From: Veillonella atypica KON
Lineage (GTDB): Bacteria > Bacillota > Negativicutes > Veillonellales > Veillonellaceae
Length of the DNA: 64,000 nt
Assembly (NCBI RefSeq): GCF_002959915.1
Contig: NZ_PPDE01000009.1
Coordinates: 62,001 to 126,000, forward strand
Reading direction: 5' to 3'
A program made the position numbers and the translations under genes. How positions within the stretch are numbered: the stretch's first letter is position 1; the number at the start of each line of letters is the position of its first letter. Shown here in pieces: positions 8,664 to 62,681 of this stretch. The notes below the pieces were generated by a model that searched no databases, was not told the DNA's origin, and worked only from the letters and a program-made list of their open reading frames with translations.

Positions 8664-8700
8664 GAAAAAGGGTATCGATATAATATGATCGATACCCTTG
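8664..8700 (-). terminator. Riboswitch-controlled terminator before thiC
   Basis: AAGGGTATCGAT and ATCGATACCCTT form a 12-bp stem followed on the minus strand by a T-run. It lies between the TPP aptamer and the thiC start, so it is the likely expression platform. Confidence 0.85.
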
Positions 8701-8705
8701 AATGG

Positions 8706-8805
8706 TTTTGCGTGCTTCCTACGCGGGCATGATCCCGATCAGGTCAAAGGTCAGGTGCTAACAGCCCTTTCTCAGCCTATCTCATAGGCTCCCTTGCATA
8801 CTCTG
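8706..8805 (-). ncRNA. TPP riboswitch (thi box)
   Basis: On the minus strand the leader reads GGGAGCC, then GGCTGAGAAAGGG, GACCTTTGACCTGATC and GGATCATGCC near a CGCG helix. These are the conserved elements of the TPP aptamer: CUGAGA, ACCUGAUC and the 3' P1/P4 parts. A terminator lies directly downstream, so TPP binding is expected to stop transcription of thiC. Confidence 0.95.
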
Positions 8806-10368: not shown

Positions 10369-10480
10369 TTAGATCTCCTTTTTCACTACATAATGAAAGT
10401 ATTATACATTTATCCCTTCTTTGAAACGCTCGTAAATTTATATTTAATTAATCTAAGCACATCATCTATAAATATTTATA

Positions 10481-10879
10481 CTATATTAGTTCTAGTTCTT
10501 GCTTTAAAGCTCGTTGTAAAATTTGTGAAAAATTAAGTTGTTTCTCTTCTGCTTTATGATTTAACCAGCTTGGGATTGTGAGAGTCTTTTTTATAGCCTT
10601 GTTATCTGTTCTTTTTAAATACTCTTCTTCGTCCCATTTTACTAAATCTATAAACTCCCCTTCATTACATTTAATATCGATTGGATTACTTGCTTTTGGA
10701 AATTCCTCGCCATCCTCACTCAATGAATATAAATAAATACCTAGTGCATCTTCAGCCATCTCTACCGCTTCACATAAAGTATCACCTTCAGTTACGCAGC
10801 CTAATAAATCTGGAAAACTTACCGTATATCCATTTTCACCGTCTGTACTAAATACAGCTGGGTACATTTCCTTTCTCAT
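10481..10879 (-). CDS. hicB: HicB-type antitoxin
   Basis: A 132-residue antitoxin. The N-terminal partial RNase H-like HicB fold is visible (YTVSFPDLLGCVTEGDTL, ALGIYLY, about 17-55). The C-terminus carries a ribbon-helix-helix/Arc-like DNA-binding part (KKTLTIPSWLNHKAEEKQ, FSQILQRALK, about 97-130). It neutralises HicA and represses the operon. hicA lies 67 bp upstream on the same strand. A HicB C-terminal remnant of the same type lies at 46582-46764. Confidence 0.92.
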   Translation of the reverse strand: MRKEMYPAVFSTDGENGYTVSFPDLLGCVTEGDTLCEAVEMAEDALGIYLYSLSEDGEEFPKASNPIDIKCNEGEFIDLVKWDEEEYLKRTDNKAIKKTLTIPSWLNHKAEEKQLNFSQILQRALKQELELI

Positions 10880-31309: not shown

Positions 31310-32461
31310 TTATTTAGGTTCTTTCAACCAGAAGCTCATTAATAATCCTAACGCACCAACAGGGATCAGTGTCATCAACGCTGTTTGTACATCGTAAATA
31401 TCTGCTAAATGTCCAATATAAGGTGCTACGAGTCCACCTAATGTAATGCCAAGCCCCAATGTAATGCCTGATGCAAAGCCTGCATTTTTAGCAAGGTATT
31501 TTTGGCCTAGAACGGTAATAGGTCCATATTGCGAGAATACGCCAAAGGCCATTGGTATCATGGCGCCAAAAAATCCCCATGCATTCGGTACGAAGATAAA
31601 CACTAATACGGATGGTAAAAATATAATATTACCTAAGCGCACTGTTTTTAGAAAGCCTAGCTTATCTGATAATGCACCACCCATATAGGTGAGGACAGCC
31701 CCCATGGCAAAGTACATAGTAAGTGCCAAGCTCGATGCACCGGCTTCGCCATTGATAACAGTAATGTATAAAATCGGTATAAAAATCGATAATACGGAGA
31801 ACAAAATTGATCGAGAGGCAATGACGAAAAATAGCTTTGTAAAACTCACCCAATCGTTTATGCCTGTATTTGTGCCCTTAATTTGGCTTTCACATTCACG
31901 CGCATCTTCGGCCTCAGTAGTATGACCTGTGAACGCATATAGATATAGCAACACGCCGAGCGCGGCAATAGCCGTAAACACCCAGAGGAATTGGCCGCCA
32001 AAGACATAAACGCCACCAGCAATGAGCGGCCCTAAGGCAAAACCAGCGCTGCCACCAACCGCAAAGCGCCCCATAGCATTGCCAATTTCATGAGATTGCG
32101 TGCGATTCACCAAAAGAGCCGCCTCAGGATGGAATAACGCTGCCCCTACGCCAGCTAAAAGAGACAAAGCAAGAATCATTTCATAGTTCGTAGCCAGCGC
32201 CATAGCGCTAATGGACACAAGAGTCACTGTAAAGCCTACCGGAATAAACCAAGGTACGCGCCATCGATCCGCTACATACCCCAAAATGGGCTGAGCAATA
32301 GACGCTACCACGGTATTACAGAAAATAATGGAAGCCGATTGATAATAATTGAGATTAAAATTAGCAATAAAAAACGGTATCAATGCAGCGAGAGAACCTT
32401 GACCGAAATCGTTAATGCAATGAAAGATAGGCGGTGCGTATTTTCTTATGGTGTTTTTCAT
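31310..32461 (-). CDS. MFS transporter, fosmidomycin-resistance (Fsr)-like
   Basis: A 383-residue inner-membrane protein with about 12 hydrophobic helices. HCINDFGQGSLAALIPFF near the N-terminus, PILGYVADRW (loop 2-3 motif) and GAALFHPEAALLVNRTQ are typical of Fsr-type efflux proteins. The substrate is unknown. A palindrome array follows its 3' end and a structured element lies immediately upstream. Confidence 0.85.
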   Translation of the reverse strand: MKNTIRKYAPPIFHCINDFGQGSLAALIPFFIANFNLNYYQSASIIFCNTVVASIAQPILGYVADRWRVPWFIPVGFTVTLVSISAMALATNYEMILALSLLAGVGAALFHPEAALLVNRTQSHEIGNAMGRFAVGGSAGFALGPLIAGGVYVFGGQFLWVFTAIAALGVLLYLYAFTGHTTEAEDARECESQIKGTNTGINDWVSFTKLFFVIASRSILFSVLSIFIPILYITVINGEAGASSLALTMYFAMGAVLTYMGGALSDKLGFLKTVRLGNIIFLPSVLVFIFVPNAWGFFGAMIPMAFGVFSQYGPITVLGQKYLAKNAGFASGITLGLGITLGGLVAPYIGHLADIYDVQTALMTLIPVGALGLLMSFWLKEPK

Positions 32462-32500: not shown

Positions 32501-32597
32501 ATGGATGATGAGGCTCCAAAAACTCCACCGGCCGGGTCTGACTACGCCCTCCGGGCTTCGCAGGGCCAAAGTCGTTTTTTGAACCCTCATCATCCAT
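32501..32597 (-). repeat. Variable-stem structured element, copy A
   Basis: Arms ATGGATGATGAGG (32501-32513) and CCTCATCATCCAT (32585-32597) plus an inner A5/T5 pairing enclose a GC-rich core (32523-32574). On the minus strand the core reads GACTTTGGCCCTGCG..., with an inner GCCC/GGGC hairpin, and ends CCGGCCGGTGGAG. The core is nearly identical to copy B (54334-54421) but the stem sequence is unrelated. Confidence 0.88.
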
Positions 32598-32768
32598 CAT
32601 TCAAAACGTTTTCGCCCTTATCCCCATACCAAGCATGCTAAACAAAAACCCCATAACAAAATACACTCTAGGGCGAAACACAAAGTCGTTTTTTACTTAG
32701 CCTATCCCCTTTCTAACTACTAATAATTATGAAGCACCGTAAGAAAATACGGCACTTACAATAAACCA

Positions 32769-32912
32769 AAAAGGACGGGTACCCTTCTCAAAACGACTTT
32801 GCCCTGTCTGCTCTATGGCTCGTTTTCGGCATAGAAGGTTTAATGCAAAAAGGATGGTCCGTTCAGAAAACGACTCTGTCCTTCTCCTTATGGCTCATTT
32901 CGGCATAGAATC
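32769..32912 (+). repeat. Two half-copies of the structured element with inverted purB 3' ends
   Basis: Half-copies at 32769-32809 and 32847-32880 each contain a stem arm plus CGACTTTGCCCTGTC or CGACTCTGTC. Each is followed by TATGGCTCGTTTTCGGC (32814) or TATGGCTCATTTCGGC (32889), which are inverted copies of the purB 3' end (GCCGAAACGAGCCAT, 33031-33045). The tandem period is about 75-77 bp. Confidence 0.8.
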
Positions 32913-32923
32913 TATAGCGAAAA

Positions 32924-33012
32924 AGGACGGGTACCCTTCTCAAAACGACTTTGCCCTGTCCCCGAAGGGGACAGATTAAGGCGGTGGAGGCTTTGAGGAG
33001 GGTGCCCGTCCT
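32924..33012 (+). repeat. Variable-stem structured element, copy E
   Basis: A 21-base arm (32924-32944, AGGACGGGTACCC...) pairs with 32992-33012 (...GGGTGCCCGTCCT); the two non-Watson-Crick positions are both G-U if transcribed from the plus strand. The core CGACTTTGCCCTGTC holds an 8-bp inner stem CTGTCCCC GAA GGGGACAG and ends GGTGGAG. It lies 13 bp from the purB stop. Confidence 0.88.
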
Positions 33013-33024
33013 GTACCGGTAGAA

Positions 33025-34320
33025 TTATAGGCCGAAACGAGCCATTATTGTATCTACGTGTTTCAATAGTTTATACGGATCGAAGCATGCATCGATTTCT
33101 TCGTCGGTCATGTATTTTTTGATGTTTTCATCGGATTTTAGACCTGTAGCGAAGTCTTTGCCTTCGAGCCAGCGTTTCATAGCGTGTTTTTGCACCCAAC
33201 GGTATGCTTCGTCACGTACGGCACCTTTGTCTACGAGGTGTGTCAAAATTGTTTGGCTGAATACAAGGCCACCTGTAAGGTTAAGGTTTTTAAGCATTGT
33301 TTCAGGGTATACCAACAATTTATCGATGGTACGGATTGTTAGGTGAAGCATGTAGTTCAACGCAATGGTTGCATCTGGTAAGATAACGCGTTCTACAGAG
33401 CTATGGGAGATGTCGCGTTCATGCCACAAAGCTTGGTCTTCGTACGCAGATTGTGCATAACCACGCAATAAACGAGCCATACCACAAATTCTTTCACAAG
33501 TGATAGGATTACGTTTATGAGGCATCGCAGAGGAACCTTTTTGTTTAGGGCTAAAGTATTCTTCAGCTTCGCGCACTTCGGTGCGTTGCAAGTGACGGAT
33601 TTCCAAAGCGATTTTATCCAATGTACCGCCTACAACAGCAATGGTGGACAATAGTTCAGCGTGACGGTCACGTTGTACGACTTGAGTAGCGATTTTAACA
33701 GGTTCAAGGCCTAGTTTTTCACATACGTATTGTTCTACGAATGGGTCAATGTTGGAGTATGTACCAACAGCACCGGACAATTTACCAACAGCAACGCTTT
33801 TACGAGCATGTTCCATGCGTTCGATATCGCGTTCTACCTCTGCCATCCAAAGGCAAAGTTTTAAACCGAATGTAGTAGGTTCGCCGTGAATACCGTGAGT
33901 ACGACCAATCATAGGCGTATGTTTGAATTCTGCAGCACGACGGCGCAATACAGCGTGTAATTGTTTCAAATCTTCAATCAAAATATCGCAAGATTGTTTC
34001 ATCATATAGCCAAGTGCAGTATCCTTAACGTCTGTGGATGTCAAGCCAAGATGAATGTATTTAGCCGCTTCAGGGCCTACATATTCGCCCACAGCAGTTA
34101 CAAAGGAAATGATGTCATGATTTGTTTCACGTTCAATTTCGTGAATTCTTTCAACATCAAAATTACCTTTTTCCCGAATGATTTTAGCTGCTTCCTTCGG
34201 AATCACGCCAAGCTCAGCTTGCGCTTCAGATGCCAATGTTTCAACCAATAACATTGTGTCGAACTCGTTGCGTTCGCTCCAAATATGGCCCATTTCTTCT
34301 CGTGTATAACGTGGTATCAT
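33025..34320 (-). CDS. purB: Adenylosuccinate lyase
   Basis: A 431-residue fumarase/aspartase-superfamily enzyme that splits SAICAR and adenylosuccinate in purine synthesis. GLTSTDVKDTALG (about 89-101), RTHGIHGEPTTFGLK (about 141) and the signature SSAMPHKRNP (about 265) are present. It begins MIPRYTREEMGHIWSE, the usual opening, with an SD (AAGGAGACATC). Its last codons (ARFGL) are copied in inverted orientation in the repeat region downstream. Confidence 0.97.
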   Translation of the reverse strand: MIPRYTREEMGHIWSERNEFDTMLLVETLASEAQAELGVIPKEAAKIIREKGNFDVERIHEIERETNHDIISFVTAVGEYVGPEAAKYIHLGLTSTDVKDTALGYMMKQSCDILIEDLKQLHAVLRRRAAEFKHTPMIGRTHGIHGEPTTFGLKLCLWMAEVERDIERMEHARKSVAVGKLSGAVGTYSNIDPFVEQYVCEKLGLEPVKIATQVVQRDRHAELLSTIAVVGGTLDKIALEIRHLQRTEVREAEEYFSPKQKGSSAMPHKRNPITCERICGMARLLRGYAQSAYEDQALWHERDISHSSVERVILPDATIALNYMLHLTIRTIDKLLVYPETMLKNLNLTGGLVFSQTILTHLVDKGAVRDEAYRWVQKHAMKRWLEGKDFATGLKSDENIKKYMTDEEIDACFDPYKLLKHVDTIMARFGL

Positions 34321-44209: not shown

Positions 44210-44380
44210 ATAACGGTGATTATCAAATAGGCAGTTCTCCTGGCTCGGGCTCAACACCTTGCTTTCGCCTTCCCAGATTGCTCCAGTGACATGTATGAAA
44301 GCAGGCTCGTCCTTACAGTGGCGGGACCGCATCGGCTTGTACCGATTTCTCTATTAAGTCTTGCGACACCTATTCTCTAT
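44210..44380 (-). ncRNA. Cobalamin riboswitch upstream of mutA
   Basis: The minus strand shows AGGTGTCGCAAGAC, CGGTACAAGCCGATGCGG, TCCCGCCACTGTAAGG, then GGGAAGGCGAAAGC and the B12 box AGCCAGGAGAACTGCC (44230-44245). These are the conserved elements in the right order. A terminator follows, so cobalamin should alter read-through into mutA. Confidence 0.94.
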
Positions 44381-44590
44381 ATTCGTTGTTCTAAGTCCAA
44401 TATAGTGTAAAAATATGCACAAAGTCAATGAACATAACAGTTAATCATAAGTAGCAAATTTAAAGTTATAACTAACGCATATATAGAATGATAAAAATGC
44501 ATAGGTGCAATTTAGAGAAATCACCTCTATAATTCGCTACTGCTATACTACCACCATGTTATAATAATTCTACTAGTGGGAGGTCGTATT

Positions 44591-54276: not shown

Positions 54277-54333
54277 ATCGGCACCTCCTATTATATATAG
54301 TAAGTATACCAAAAAAACTAAAGGGGGATAAGA

Positions 54334-54421
54334 GTAAGGGGGTGCTAAAAGCTCCACCGGCCGGGTCTGACTACGCCCTTCGGGCTCCGCAGGGCCAAAG
54401 TCACTTTTAGCACCCACTTAC
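54334..54421 (-). repeat. Variable-stem structured element, copy B
   Basis: An 18-base arm (54334-54351, GTAAGGGGGTGCTAAAAG) pairs with 54404-54421 at 17 of 18 positions. The core, on the minus strand, reads GACTTTGGCCCTGCGG, inner GCCC GAA GGGC, GTAGTCAGACCC, CCGGTGGAG. It is near identical to copy A (32501), although the stems are unrelated. Confidence 0.9.
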
Positions 54422-54444
54422 ACTTCTCCACAATAAAACAGAGA

Positions 54445-54530
54445 AAACATATTTCCAATCTATAATTGAAGAAATAAAAAAGGTGAGCTGCCTCGAAAAA
54501 ACGACTTCGGGTCCCTTCCTCTACCCCCTG
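54445..54530 (+). repeat. Half-copy with an inverted clcA 3' end
   Basis: ATTTCCAATCTA (54451-54462) is an inverted copy of the clcA 3' end (TAGATTGGAAAT, 54702-54713). A decayed arm and CGACTTCGGGTCCC follow at 54480-54515. A second inverted copy occurs exactly 100 bp later (54551-54562), leading into copy C. Confidence 0.75.
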
Positions 54531-54581
54531 TAATAATGCAGCAAAATCATATTTCCAATCTATGTTAGATTTAAGACGAAA

Positions 54582-54679
54582 ACGCGAGGTCCCTCTGAAG
54601 AAATCGACTTTGGCCCTGCGAAGGCCGCAGGCCGAAGTCAGACCCGGCCGGTGGAGATTTCTTTAGAGGGACCTCGCGT
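54582..54679 (+). repeat. Variable-stem structured element, copy C
   Basis: A 24-base arm (54582-54605) pairs with 54656-54679 at 23 positions plus one G-U. The arm begins ACGCGAGGTCCC. Core GACTTTGGCCCTGCG, inner CTGCG/CGCAG, then AGTCAGACCCGGCCGGTGGAG split over 54606-54655. The palindrome extends outward to ATTTCCAATCTA/TAGATTGGAAAT, the latter inside clcA. Confidence 0.92.
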
Positions 54680-54696: not shown

Positions 54697-56241
54697 CTAA
54701 TTAGATTGGAAATAAGATTTAGCTGCTTTTAATCGTCCTCGTTCGCACGATACTTGTAGTTCATCGCCCGGTTGTAGTTTTACATCGTTTAGAGGCACGA
54801 TGTATGTTCCATTCCGGCGAATGCTAACGATTAAAGTCCCCTCTGGCAAGTTGAGGTCTTGCAATTGTGTATCAACATAGGATGCCACTACAGGCACCTT
54901 GGTTTGGAAAAAGGTTTGAACATTTTCTAGGTTGCTTTGACCTGTCATGGCTTGTAATAAGGAATCGTAAATAGGTGGTTCTTTTAAGAGTTCTGCCACC
55001 AAGTAGGCCACGATGGTAACAATACCGATGGCATAGATGTTAGAAAAGCTATTTGTCATTTCAAGAACGAGCAGAATAGCTAAAATTGGTGTCCGCATAG
55101 CGGCTGCTAGCATACCGCCCATGGCACAAATAACGAATTGCGGTACAAAATCAGGAGATATTAACCCTGCCGATGAAAGCAGGCTTTCACAAAAAGCACC
55201 GGCTGATGCACCGATAACAAGCATCGGTAGAAAGATGCCGCCCTGTGCGCCGCTGCCATAACAAAAGGTAGTGAGCAAGATTTTACCCAGCACAATGCCA
55301 CCGAGAAGCAATACACCATGAGATTGAAAGGCTAGCTGGCCTACTAGATCATTGCCACCGCCCAATAAAAGCTGGGAATCAAAGCCGATAACGGCCACAG
55401 TCACAAAAGTAATCACAAGTTTTAAGAAACGAGAGCATTTCATCCACTCGAAGAAACGCTTAAAGGCAAATATCATGCGGCAAAACAATACACCGCAGAG
55501 CCCCATTAAAATACCTACACCGAGCAGAACCGGAAAATAATCAAGCGGCATCCCTGAAGTTACAGAAAATCCGAGGGCCGGCGTAAGGCCAAAGATAGTT
55601 ACTGTAATGTAGTTCGATATGAGCGTAGCCACGAAGGTAGGAATGACGAGGTACGGATAAAAACTTTTGTGCACCTCTTCAAAAACGAACATGGCGCCGG
55701 ATACAGGTGCGCTAAAGGCAGCGGTCAGACCAGCTCCAGCTCCAGCGGAGGTAAGAATCCGCTGTTCACGCAATCCAGAGTTCATCCAATAGGACACGAT
55801 TTTACCGGCAGAGCCGCCAATTTGCACCGCTGGCCCTTCACGGCCCACGGAAAATCCAGCAAAGCCGGTTAGTACGCCACCTATCATCTTGGAAATAAGC
55901 GTACGGTACGGCTTCATGTCAAATAAACCGAGCATTTCCCCTTCAATTTGAGGAATACCTGAACCGCCAGATAATGGTGCCCACGTCAACAATCGATCGA
56001 TAATAAAAGCAAACACTACCATGGCAATGAGCCAGGCTATGGCCCATTCGATAGAAATATCGCCCATCAAATGCCACCTAACATGCTCGGACTCGAGAAT
56101 TAAGTACCGATAAGCAGCTCCGAAAAAGCCTGCAATAATACCTACTAATGCCCCTTTGACGATGAGTTCAGATAGCAAAATACGATTCATCGACATATCT
56201 GCCAAGGTAGAGCTGTGTTTATTTAGTTTCCATAATTTCAT
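54697..56241 (-). CDS. clcA: ClC-family chloride channel/transporter with TrkA-C domain
   Basis: A 514-residue inner-membrane protein. The ClC selectivity motifs are GSGIPQIEG (about 93-101), GREGPAVQIGG (about 134-144) and GAQGGIFLPML (about 338-348). A C-terminal TrkA-C/RCK-C regulatory domain is visible (LNLPEGTLIVSIRRNGTYIVPLNDVKLQPGDELQV). It exchanges chloride for protons or conducts it, often for acid resistance. A GAGGAG SD precedes the ATG. Its last codons are duplicated in the repeat region. Confidence 0.95.
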   Translation of the reverse strand: MKLWKLNKHSSTLADMSMNRILLSELIVKGALVGIIAGFFGAAYRYLILESEHVRWHLMGDISIEWAIAWLIAMVVFAFIIDRLLTWAPLSGGSGIPQIEGEMLGLFDMKPYRTLISKMIGGVLTGFAGFSVGREGPAVQIGGSAGKIVSYWMNSGLREQRILTSAGAGAGLTAAFSAPVSGAMFVFEEVHKSFYPYLVIPTFVATLISNYITVTIFGLTPALGFSVTSGMPLDYFPVLLGVGILMGLCGVLFCRMIFAFKRFFEWMKCSRFLKLVITFVTVAVIGFDSQLLLGGGNDLVGQLAFQSHGVLLLGGIVLGKILLTTFCYGSGAQGGIFLPMLVIGASAGAFCESLLSSAGLISPDFVPQFVICAMGGMLAAAMRTPILAILLVLEMTNSFSNIYAIGIVTIVAYLVAELLKEPPIYDSLLQAMTGQSNLENVQTFFQTKVPVVASYVDTQLQDLNLPEGTLIVSIRRNGTYIVPLNDVKLQPGDELQVSCERGRLKAAKSYFQSN

Positions 56242-61910: not shown

Positions 61911-62681
61911 TTATTGATTTGCTTCCCATTCGGCAAAGCCCGCATTAATGCAAGACAATGCATTCAACACACGAGGAAAGCCAATATACGGCACACATTG
62001 GGAGGCAATGCTAATCAGAAATCTCTTATCATTTCCTACGTTCAAATTACCAATGACATGCGCCTTAAGCTGCGCTTCACAACCGCCTTGCGCCATGAGA
62101 AAACAAAAGGTAATGAGCTCGCGTTGTTTAGTGCTAAGCCCCTTACGAGTATAGTAATCACCGAACATGTTCGCTAACCATTTATTGATATGACGCGTAT
62201 CTTCAGGTCCCGATTGGTAAAAGTTACGCATTCCTTCACCCCAGATTTCCACTTGCTTTTCGATGCCCTTTTCAAGGCGATTTTCACTGGTAATCGTGCT
62301 GCGATGAGGATTTTGAATTTCTTCATCTCGGTAATCGAGTATCTTATTAGTAATCTTAAAGAACGGACGCACCTTCCCGATGCCAAGATACGGTACCGCT
62401 TGATAAATAAGTTCCACGATTTCATCGGGAATGACACCAAAATTTAATGCAGCTGGCATCATCAACGAGTATTCATCTGTGGCACCTGCCCCAACCAAGG
62501 TAGCTAAAATGGCCAAGAAACGACTATGCGCTGCTACATTACAGCCATCCTCTATAATGACCTCGTGAAAGGCAAAATTTTCAAATAGATCTTCAAACTC
62601 AGGGTCTATATATCCTGCTGGCGATGCAATATCGGGGAACATGCGTTCCGTATAGGCCTGCGCAAATTCAGATTTTGCCAT
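61911..62681 (-). CDS. Two-domain carboxymuconolactone decarboxylase family protein
   Basis: A 256-residue protein with two CMD halves: the first around EVIIEDGCNVAAHSRFLAILATLVG (about 39-63), the second around TKQRELITFCFLMAQGGCEAQLKAHVIGNLNVG (about 195-227). The second half is very similar to the single-domain protein at 11627 (GGCEAQLK.H). Both carry Cys and His in the CMD helix without a CXXC pair. Role unknown. SD AGGAGG. Confidence 0.88.
   Translation of the reverse strand: MAKSEFAQAYTERMFPDIASPAGYIDPEFEDLFENFAFHEVIIEDGCNVAAHSRFLAILATLVGAGATDEYSLMMPAALNFGVIPDEIVELIYQAVPYLGIGKVRPFFKITNKILDYRDEEIQNPHRSTITSENRLEKGIEKQVEIWGEGMRNFYQSGPEDTRHINKWLANMFGDYYTRKGLSTKQRELITFCFLMAQGGCEAQLKAHVIGNLNVGNDKRFLISIASQCVPYIGFPRVLNALSCINAGFAEWEANQ

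Follow-up and report, generated by a model that had tools for sequence, protein, structure and literature searches.

The standard way to prove that an RNA structure is under selection is to show that its paired bases covary. Among hairpins that recur within a genome, DNA-uptake-sequence terminators carry a repeated motif within terminator hairpins, in hundreds of copies or more. They are named in the part of PMC2267715 used here. Hairpin arms may also be copied from one another: in the passages of two papers drawn on here, template switching predicts homogenisation of the arms and inversion of the spacer, and templated copying of arm onto arm can yield covariation without selection (PMC8604942, PMC8794818). 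With dozens of loci and close relatives, the Veillonella hairpin family described below is a natural bacterial case for separating mutational from selective covariation.

The stretch of DNA analysed (the window; 64,000 nt, positions 62,001–126,000 of contig NZ_PPDE01000009.1 of Veillonella atypica KON) contained four hairpins, copies A, E, B and C, which were found where the original prediction had placed them and with the core and stems it had described. Copy A (32501–32597, minus strand) was a full element with a 52-nt core and a locus-specific stem of 20 Watson–Crick pairs and one G.U, 5' of an MFS-type transporter gene (named by eye; gene names, i.e. purB, MFS, mnmE, mnmG, rpmH and dnaA, were read off translations and not taken from a family search). 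The outer arm of A (32643–32664) repeated, in inverted orientation, the first codons of the gene that begins at 32461, with the partner at approximately 32438–32458 (score 34, control 99th percentile 26.9). Copy E (32924–33012, plus strand), with a 44-nt core variant and a 21-pair stem, lay behind a purB-like gene (33025–34320, minus strand) whose stop codon was 12 nt away. Its outer left arm (32890–32910) repeated the final 21 nt of this gene in inverted orientation (score 30, control 99th percentile 28.5), and a further inverted copy, also from the 3' end of the gene, was seen by eye at 32815–32836; the partner of both was formed by the final codons (33025–33045, minus strand). Two partial copies were also present: D (32772–32806, plus strand), with an E-like left arm and the first part of the core, the remainder being missing, and a second left half with a different arm, CGACTCTG (32847–32880, plus strand, by eye).

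Copy B (54582–54679, plus strand) had a 52-nt core and a 23-pair stem (22 Watson–Crick pairs and one G.U), and lay behind the gene at 54697–56241, the stop codon of which was 17 nt away. The last 33 nt of this gene (partner 54697–54729, minus strand, the final codons) recurred inverted as the outer left arm of B (54535–54569, score 45). A partial unit at 54449–54530 (plus strand, by eye) comprised a copy of the same gene end, a left arm and a core fragment, CGACTTCGGG. Judged by eye, partial units bearing the same gene-end copies thus adjoined both E (32772–32880) and B. Copy C (54326–54429, minus strand) had a stem of 23 pairs with three mismatches and no G.U. Deviations in the outer stems of C and E had been described as G-U pairs; this was correct for E, with two G.U in the first 21 stem positions, whereas those of C were plain mismatches. 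The phenomenon proved larger than originally noticed, comprising approximately 40 copies, the two partial copies next to E and palindromes that reach into adjacent genes.

A script search for CGACTT...GGAG (at most one mismatch each) closed by a strong stem yielded 139 hairpins in 13 genomes, a sample that is not unbiased since most loci had been chosen for model or pattern matches there. The finder scored G.T above A.C. In an earlier run over 329 kb, the exact motif pair was found 62 times, four altered-motif controls not at all and two controls keeping CGACTT 25 times and once. Fifty-seven hairpins were nonredundant, the criterion being a difference at more than 6 of 18 left-arm bases. The wider family shared only the tip, C-GA-C-UU...U-G-GA-G, and the stems differed between loci. 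The tip is able to pair as C-G, G.A, A.G, C-G and U.U, with a tandem G.A between C-G pairs, and holds an insert of 5 to approximately 43 nt in flavours that differ between species. In the flavour peculiar to G002 near dnaA, the G.A pairs stayed and the flanking pairs were both changed, to T-A and A-T (by eye). Only a weak TTCAAAA-like bias adjoined the tip. A K-turn was considered and dropped because the 3-nt bulge beside the tandem G.A was absent (by eye). Another hairpin flavour, CGACTTCGGGCTCCGC...GTGTCGG/CAG, has a Watson–Crick tip stem (CGAC/GTCG) in place of tandem G.A; it was seen by eye in L087 and L091 (G013) and in a window fragment at 54501–54520.

The first long helix had 19–24 pairs in 48/57 hairpins and 21 or 22 in 29/57 (range 16–40). 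Beyond a short internal loop, pairing resumed and gave a longer imperfect palindrome. The similarity between the left and right sides of one element exceeded the 95th percentile of cross pairs in 57/57 hairpins at 0–26 nt, and in 24 at 26–46, 43 at 30–60, 39 at 46–76, 20 at 60–90, 24 at 80–110 and 9 at 100–140 nt, where approximately 3/57 are expected per distance bin. A script for pairing extension was too permissive (median extent 102 nt, control 75 nt), and only displayed pairings were used. The CGACTT strand folded better, its RNA minimum free energy being the lower one in 55/57.

In the 2.04-Mb genome of strain KON, the pattern CGACTTTGNCCCTG (at most one mismatch) had 38 matches, of which 32 were exact; the reversed control had two. 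The exact 14-mer CGACTTTGGCCCTG occurred 32 times in this genome, 23 times in V. tobetsuensis (G013) and once or twice each in G005, G008, G010 and G011, and was absent from the other 8 of 14 genus genomes and from 14 other genomes of the family. A longer exact long-type pattern matched 18 stretches among 84,980 species genomes, a collection from which strain KON is possibly missing. All were from Veillonella (V. tobetsuensis 15; V. rogosae, V. infantium and V. sp. T11011-6 one each). The same pattern had no match in viral contigs, and a search of plasmids with one copy as the query had none either. A covariance model built from 18 long copies (R1) found 45 places in strain KON, 36 in V. tobetsuensis and 0–4 in each of 12 others, with at least one match in 11/14 genus genomes. 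A mixed model (R2), based on an alignment (A2) in which some arms are off by one, was run with strict filters against 61 genomes of the order, the best 75 candidates being scored per genome. Among these candidates it matched at least 12/14 genus genomes and at least 1/47 others (G014, weak, E 4.8e-4), where there was no strong hairpin. The two models together gave a match in 13/14 genus genomes, and none for G006 among the candidates scored.

The original prediction had not recognised the family, nor did Rfam: the whole window at gathering score gave only Cobalamin, TPP and tRNA, with nothing on the elements, and four loci searched at E up to 5 gave seven sub-threshold matches, none overlapping an element. 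The riboswitches were at 44213–44388 (Cobalamin) and 8699–8805 (TPP) of the window. In open-licence papers we recognised no description of the hairpin family. The Veillonella hairpins are a real, genus-limited family with unusual anatomy.

The pairing of arms was scored for 48 regex candidates from the window and from 20 KON loci. Own arms scored 45–67 in 31 candidates (one element being counted twice) and 13–29 in 17, compared with a mean of 19, a 99th percentile of 34 and a maximum of 62 for arms of different candidates. The 17 low scorers were chance matches and true copies with decayed arms (e.g. L015 −2610 and −2415, L021, L024 +7225). At approximately 2000–2660 of L015 (minus strand), three tandem units had a common left arm, and the right arm was mostly lost in two. 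When the 18 long copies, selected for equal length with shorter-tip copies excluded, were aligned without gaps, 93.1% of cells were paired, far above the 70.0% of shuffles and the 47–48% obtained on sliding by one column. Cells changed on both sides numbered 172, versus 56 in shuffles, and two-sided changes occurred at all 22 outer stem pairs. The number of pairs changed on both sides was hardly above chance (23, shuffles 20.6, reached by 31/500); the covariation signal is carried by the cell counts and not by the pair count. The inner hairpin covaried as predicted: pair 42–50 was G-C in 12/18 and C-G in 6/18 long copies, and there was a second tip type, CTGTCCC-GNA-GGGACAG. As relatives across Veillonella carry further copies, by covariance-model and pattern searches, and the stems covary beyond chance, the prediction came through both checks that it had itself named as able to overturn it.

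Stems covarying around a fixed core had been taken as the signature of a selected structure. In the conventional form of that explanation, the hairpin is a selected RNA (a 3'-UTR element or small RNA) with compensatory stem mutations, the tip of which would bind a protein or ligand in the way suggested for conserved-loop terminators. We consider it unlikely. The two-sided cell counts, the stem length of 19–24 pairs in 48/57, a strand-specific wobble (below) and the tip of G002, which by eye keeps its G.A pairs despite the changed flanking pairs, speak for it, as do the hairpins at the orthologous place at oriC, where 8 distinct arm pairs show two-sided changes at 13/22 pairs (a count made without a control). 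It leaves unexplained the clustering of two-sided changes, the flipped hairpins, their absence at some syntenic sites and the inverted copies of coding ends, and the gene neighbours appear unrelated by eye. The covariation is genuine, but taken alone it does not prove that an RNA is under selection.

Of 37 listed hairpins of the KON genome, 27 were compared with the syntenic region of V. tobetsuensis (G013), and a script found the element for 22, two of them flipped. Among the five without a scripted match, two were present by eye (L015/L077 in the same orientation; L027/L030 14882 flipped), the sites of copy E and L025 +1996 carried a hairpin with another tip flavour, and copy C was cleanly absent together with its neighbouring sequence. 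Flipped hairpins therefore made up 3/24 (two of the 22 found automatically, the third by eye). Arms at the same locus ranged from identical to wholly changed, yet they were still paired. Fifteen locus pairs had the same orientation and equal register (five with different register were excluded). Of their 300 base pairs, 222 were the same, 55 had changed on both sides, 14 via G.T, 6 via A.C and 3 otherwise, i.e. 55 two-sided versus 23 one-sided changes. Fifty-one of the 55 fell in six loci (10, 7, 6, 13, 4 and 11 per 20), and the remaining nine loci had 0–2 each. Without L027 6361 and L058, the orthology of which is doubtful, the counts were 31 two-sided versus 19 one-sided. Tip flavours differed at the same place in L024/L089, L016/L079, L055/L076 and L058/L073. 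In the inner stem, arms were more similar within than between genomes at 13/20 loci and the opposite was seen at none; the corresponding values were 8/20 at 26–76 nt (1 opposite) and 3/20 at 40–110 nt (1 opposite).

Other Veillonella genomes showed further changes. In the mnmE–mnmG gap, V. rogosae (G010) carried the hairpin of strain KON inverted, and G007 and G012 had none. At the L026 2042 place, G004, G008 and G011 shared the stem part AACACCTTTC (or AACACCCTTC) with strain KON, with a short tip and the other orientation. In other Veillonella species, a different repeat family (GTCCAGGTCGCTCGCTGGGC...CGACCAAAG.GA) was observed in the mnmE–mnmG gap (loci L033, L035, L038 and L039). Plain insertion into existing terminators was dropped as an explanation, because the hairpin was absent at some syntenic sites (G007 and G012 in the mnmE–mnmG gap) and the arms follow the local sequence. 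Clustered two-sided stem changes together with spacer inversion correspond to the footprint of template switching, here in a pairwise comparison of two species only.

The arms also resembled the neighbouring genes. With simple ORF calls, 33 of 56 copies with usable context were followed, 0–73 nt (median 17) beyond the right arm, by the stop codon of an opposite-strand gene, and in the remaining 23 the gene on that side pointed away. The left flank resembled, in inverted form, a section of the neighbour gene's final 60 nt above the control 95th percentile in 23/33 gene-end copies (1.7 expected), a few of which are orthologous loci in two species, and 16 of the 23 were above the 99th percentile. 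The aligned inverted blocks were 15–51 nt long and imperfect. An inner control of coding sequence 60–120 nt inside the gene gave 0/33 above the 95th percentile, and 10/33 gene-end copies had no copy of the gene end above control. Among the gene-start copies, 6/23 resembled the inverted gene start, versus 3/23 for the inner control.

The inverted copy begins close behind the stem and does not reach beyond the gene's final 60 nt, as would be expected of self-primed reverse transcription, in which the 3' hairpin of a terminated mRNA would prime cDNA of the gene end, which would be built back into the chromosome. This route seems highly improbable to us: RVT_1 had no match in the KON genome (3/14 control genomes had one), gene-start copies also showed an inverted copy (6/23), and DNA template switching suffices. 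Given the lack of an RVT_1 match in the KON genome, the hairpins did not fit a retron or other retroelement. Nor did they fit a MITE, as the arms differ between copies and common terminal inverted repeats were not found.

On the strand of the gene, the stem exit carried a T-tract (5 or more T in 8) in 27/33 gene-end copies versus 6/23 other copies (Fisher p 7e-5). On the opposite strand the numbers were 18/33 and 7/23, with a background of 20%. The T-tracts behind genes fit candidate terminators, possibly acting in both directions. Against a terminator account counts that the better-folding CGACTT strand is antisense to the gene of the candidate terminator.

Wobble pairs offered a way to weigh selection against copying. 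On the CGACTT strand, inner stem positions 9–23 had 20 G.T versus 3 A.C (p 5e-4); an earlier count over positions 10–23 gave 30 versus 5. Further out, there were 48 G.T versus 38 A.C at 26–76 nt (p 0.33) and 76 versus 51 at 30–110 nt (p 0.03). We take this to mean that the folded CGACTT strand is constrained, chiefly in its inner stem. The asymmetry could also come from a repair or copying bias, and the scoring of the finder slightly favoured G.T. Since the clear strand-specific wobble is confined to the inner stem, this part is probably selected as well, and the weaker excess of G.T at 30–110 nt suggests that the outer arms are perhaps not wholly free. The conserved tip and the strand-specific wobble of the inner stem argue for a constrained folded strand. 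Much of the covariation nevertheless looks mutational, given the bursts of changes on both arms, the flips, the inverted gene ends and the near-symmetric wobbles of the outer arms; the first three point to templated copying from arm to arm. The original inference from covariation to a selected structure is thus only partly supported.

Many hairpins lay near the replication origin. In five complete genomes, all of the at least 42 listed matches of R1 and R2 were within 0.38 of the half-chromosome from dnaA; many of these are orthologous, and the R2 share comes from the best 75 candidates per genome. The 11 matches of R1 alone, for which the candidate limit hardly applied in these genomes, were all within the same distance. 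Seventeen probes mapped in the KON genome were mostly near the origin, but five sites, of which contig C10 holds four and C1 one, were further away than 0.5 of the half-chromosome; the C3 135-kb probe had no placement. A plus-oriented copy preceded the DnaA-box array of dnaA by 27–202 nt in 11/13 genomes whose upstream region was examined, the exceptions being G002 (hairpins with their own tip) and G006 (none at threshold); G001 was cut by a contig end. The arms of this oriC copy formed 8 distinct pairs between species, with 160/176 cells paired (no control was run for these counts), and the copy in strain KON had folding z-scores of −7.5 as RNA and −6.9 as DNA. Among nine genomes of other genera, only G023 had a 20-bp hairpin at oriC, and the motif was absent. 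That hairpin (L118 1226–1300) was perfect, with a 35-nt loop, approximately 110 nt from a DnaA box. Between the two oriC hairpins of strain KON (L026, approximately 10400–10700), tandem units of approximately 60 bp were seen by eye. No replication-strand bias in orientation was clear by eye in the matches listed for the complete genomes.

These positions could be taken to mean that the hairpins are origin-region sites at which a tip-recognising protein binds and which serve replication start or chromosome organisation. The plus hairpin before the DnaA boxes in 11/13 genomes and the 42/42 listed matches within 0.38 of the half-chromosome favour this explanation, which we nevertheless think improbable. 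Many of the 42 matches are orthologous, with R2 matches drawn from the best 75 candidates per genome. In strain KON, five sites fall further out than 0.5 of the half-chromosome, the hairpins are positioned with respect to gene ends, no hairpin was seen at oriC in G006, and local spread could yield the same bias. Slightly less probable still is a REP/RAYT-like system, in which single-stranded hairpin DNA is mobilised by a Y1 (HuH) transposase. The KON genome does have 12 Y1_Tnp matches (IS200-like genes and fragments), the hairpins are dispersed and non-coding, and a crude loop script found C-GNA-G loops in 19/57. On the other side, the GTAG/CGTC foot is absent and the stems differ between copies (alignments judged by eye), and the number of Y1_Tnp matches does not track the elements: G007 has none with at least six model matches, and G006 has 14, mostly fragments, with no model match among the candidates scored. 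As neither the foot nor co-occurrence with Y1 was found, membership in REP/RAYT was rejected.

Our preferred explanation, to which we give about an even chance, is a family of dispersed hairpins maintained by template switching, with gene-end copies serving as terminators and the inner stem and tip additionally constrained. The arms would be rewritten by templated DNA synthesis, either through template switching or because a strand that has folded at the hairpin snaps back. One arm with its flank would be copied onto the other, and the spacer may invert in the process. The tip would be spread and homogenised between copies by some copying route. Finished hairpins would persist mostly directly behind genes, as long-stem intrinsic terminators, and the inner stem and tip would be further constrained as a folded single strand, probably RNA.

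A related account is possible, although we think it clearly less probable: the tip would be mobile and build its stem from the target, a fold-back copying the gene end into an inverted repeat that is then recopied from arm to arm, with a host terminator as the product and a tie to the origin. No element class known to us derives its inverted repeats from the target like this, and we recognised none in the literature searched. Under template-switch maintenance, the hairpins suggest that base-pairing can be maintained by copying one arm from the other and not by selection alone. They also offer a possible one-step route to the origin of long hairpins and terminators.

Several described systems resemble these hairpins in part. 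Sponge mitochondria reportedly contain repetitive hairpin elements (PMC2800124), intergenic hairpin-forming repeats that are likened to the Veillonella family here by description only. In comparison with DNA-uptake-sequence terminators, the common part in Veillonella is the tip and not the arms, and there are tens of copies. REP elements, as treated in the sections of PMC3733652 used here, are likewise dispersed extragenic palindromes with G.T pairs in their stems and a possible role in termination; they are 20–40 bp long, with stems mostly of 6–9 bp and a GTAG/CGTC foot, unlike the Veillonella hairpins. The HRC-8-4, HMP-PP and guanidine-IV terminators share the strong stem, the U-tract and conserved tip nucleotides, going by the relevant part of PMC8632094. 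HMP-PP and guanidine-IV are gene switches there, whereas the Veillonella hairpins lie behind gene ends in 33/56 cases and number dozens per genome. Template-switch (quasipalindrome) mutation shares with them the homogenisation of arms, the appearance of several compensatory changes at once and the inversion of the spacer or loop. The cases presented in the consulted parts of PMC8794818 and PMC8604942 are rRNA stems and inverted repeats in yeast coding sequence, whereas Veillonella has a dispersed family with one tip, the arms of which reach into the neighbouring genes.
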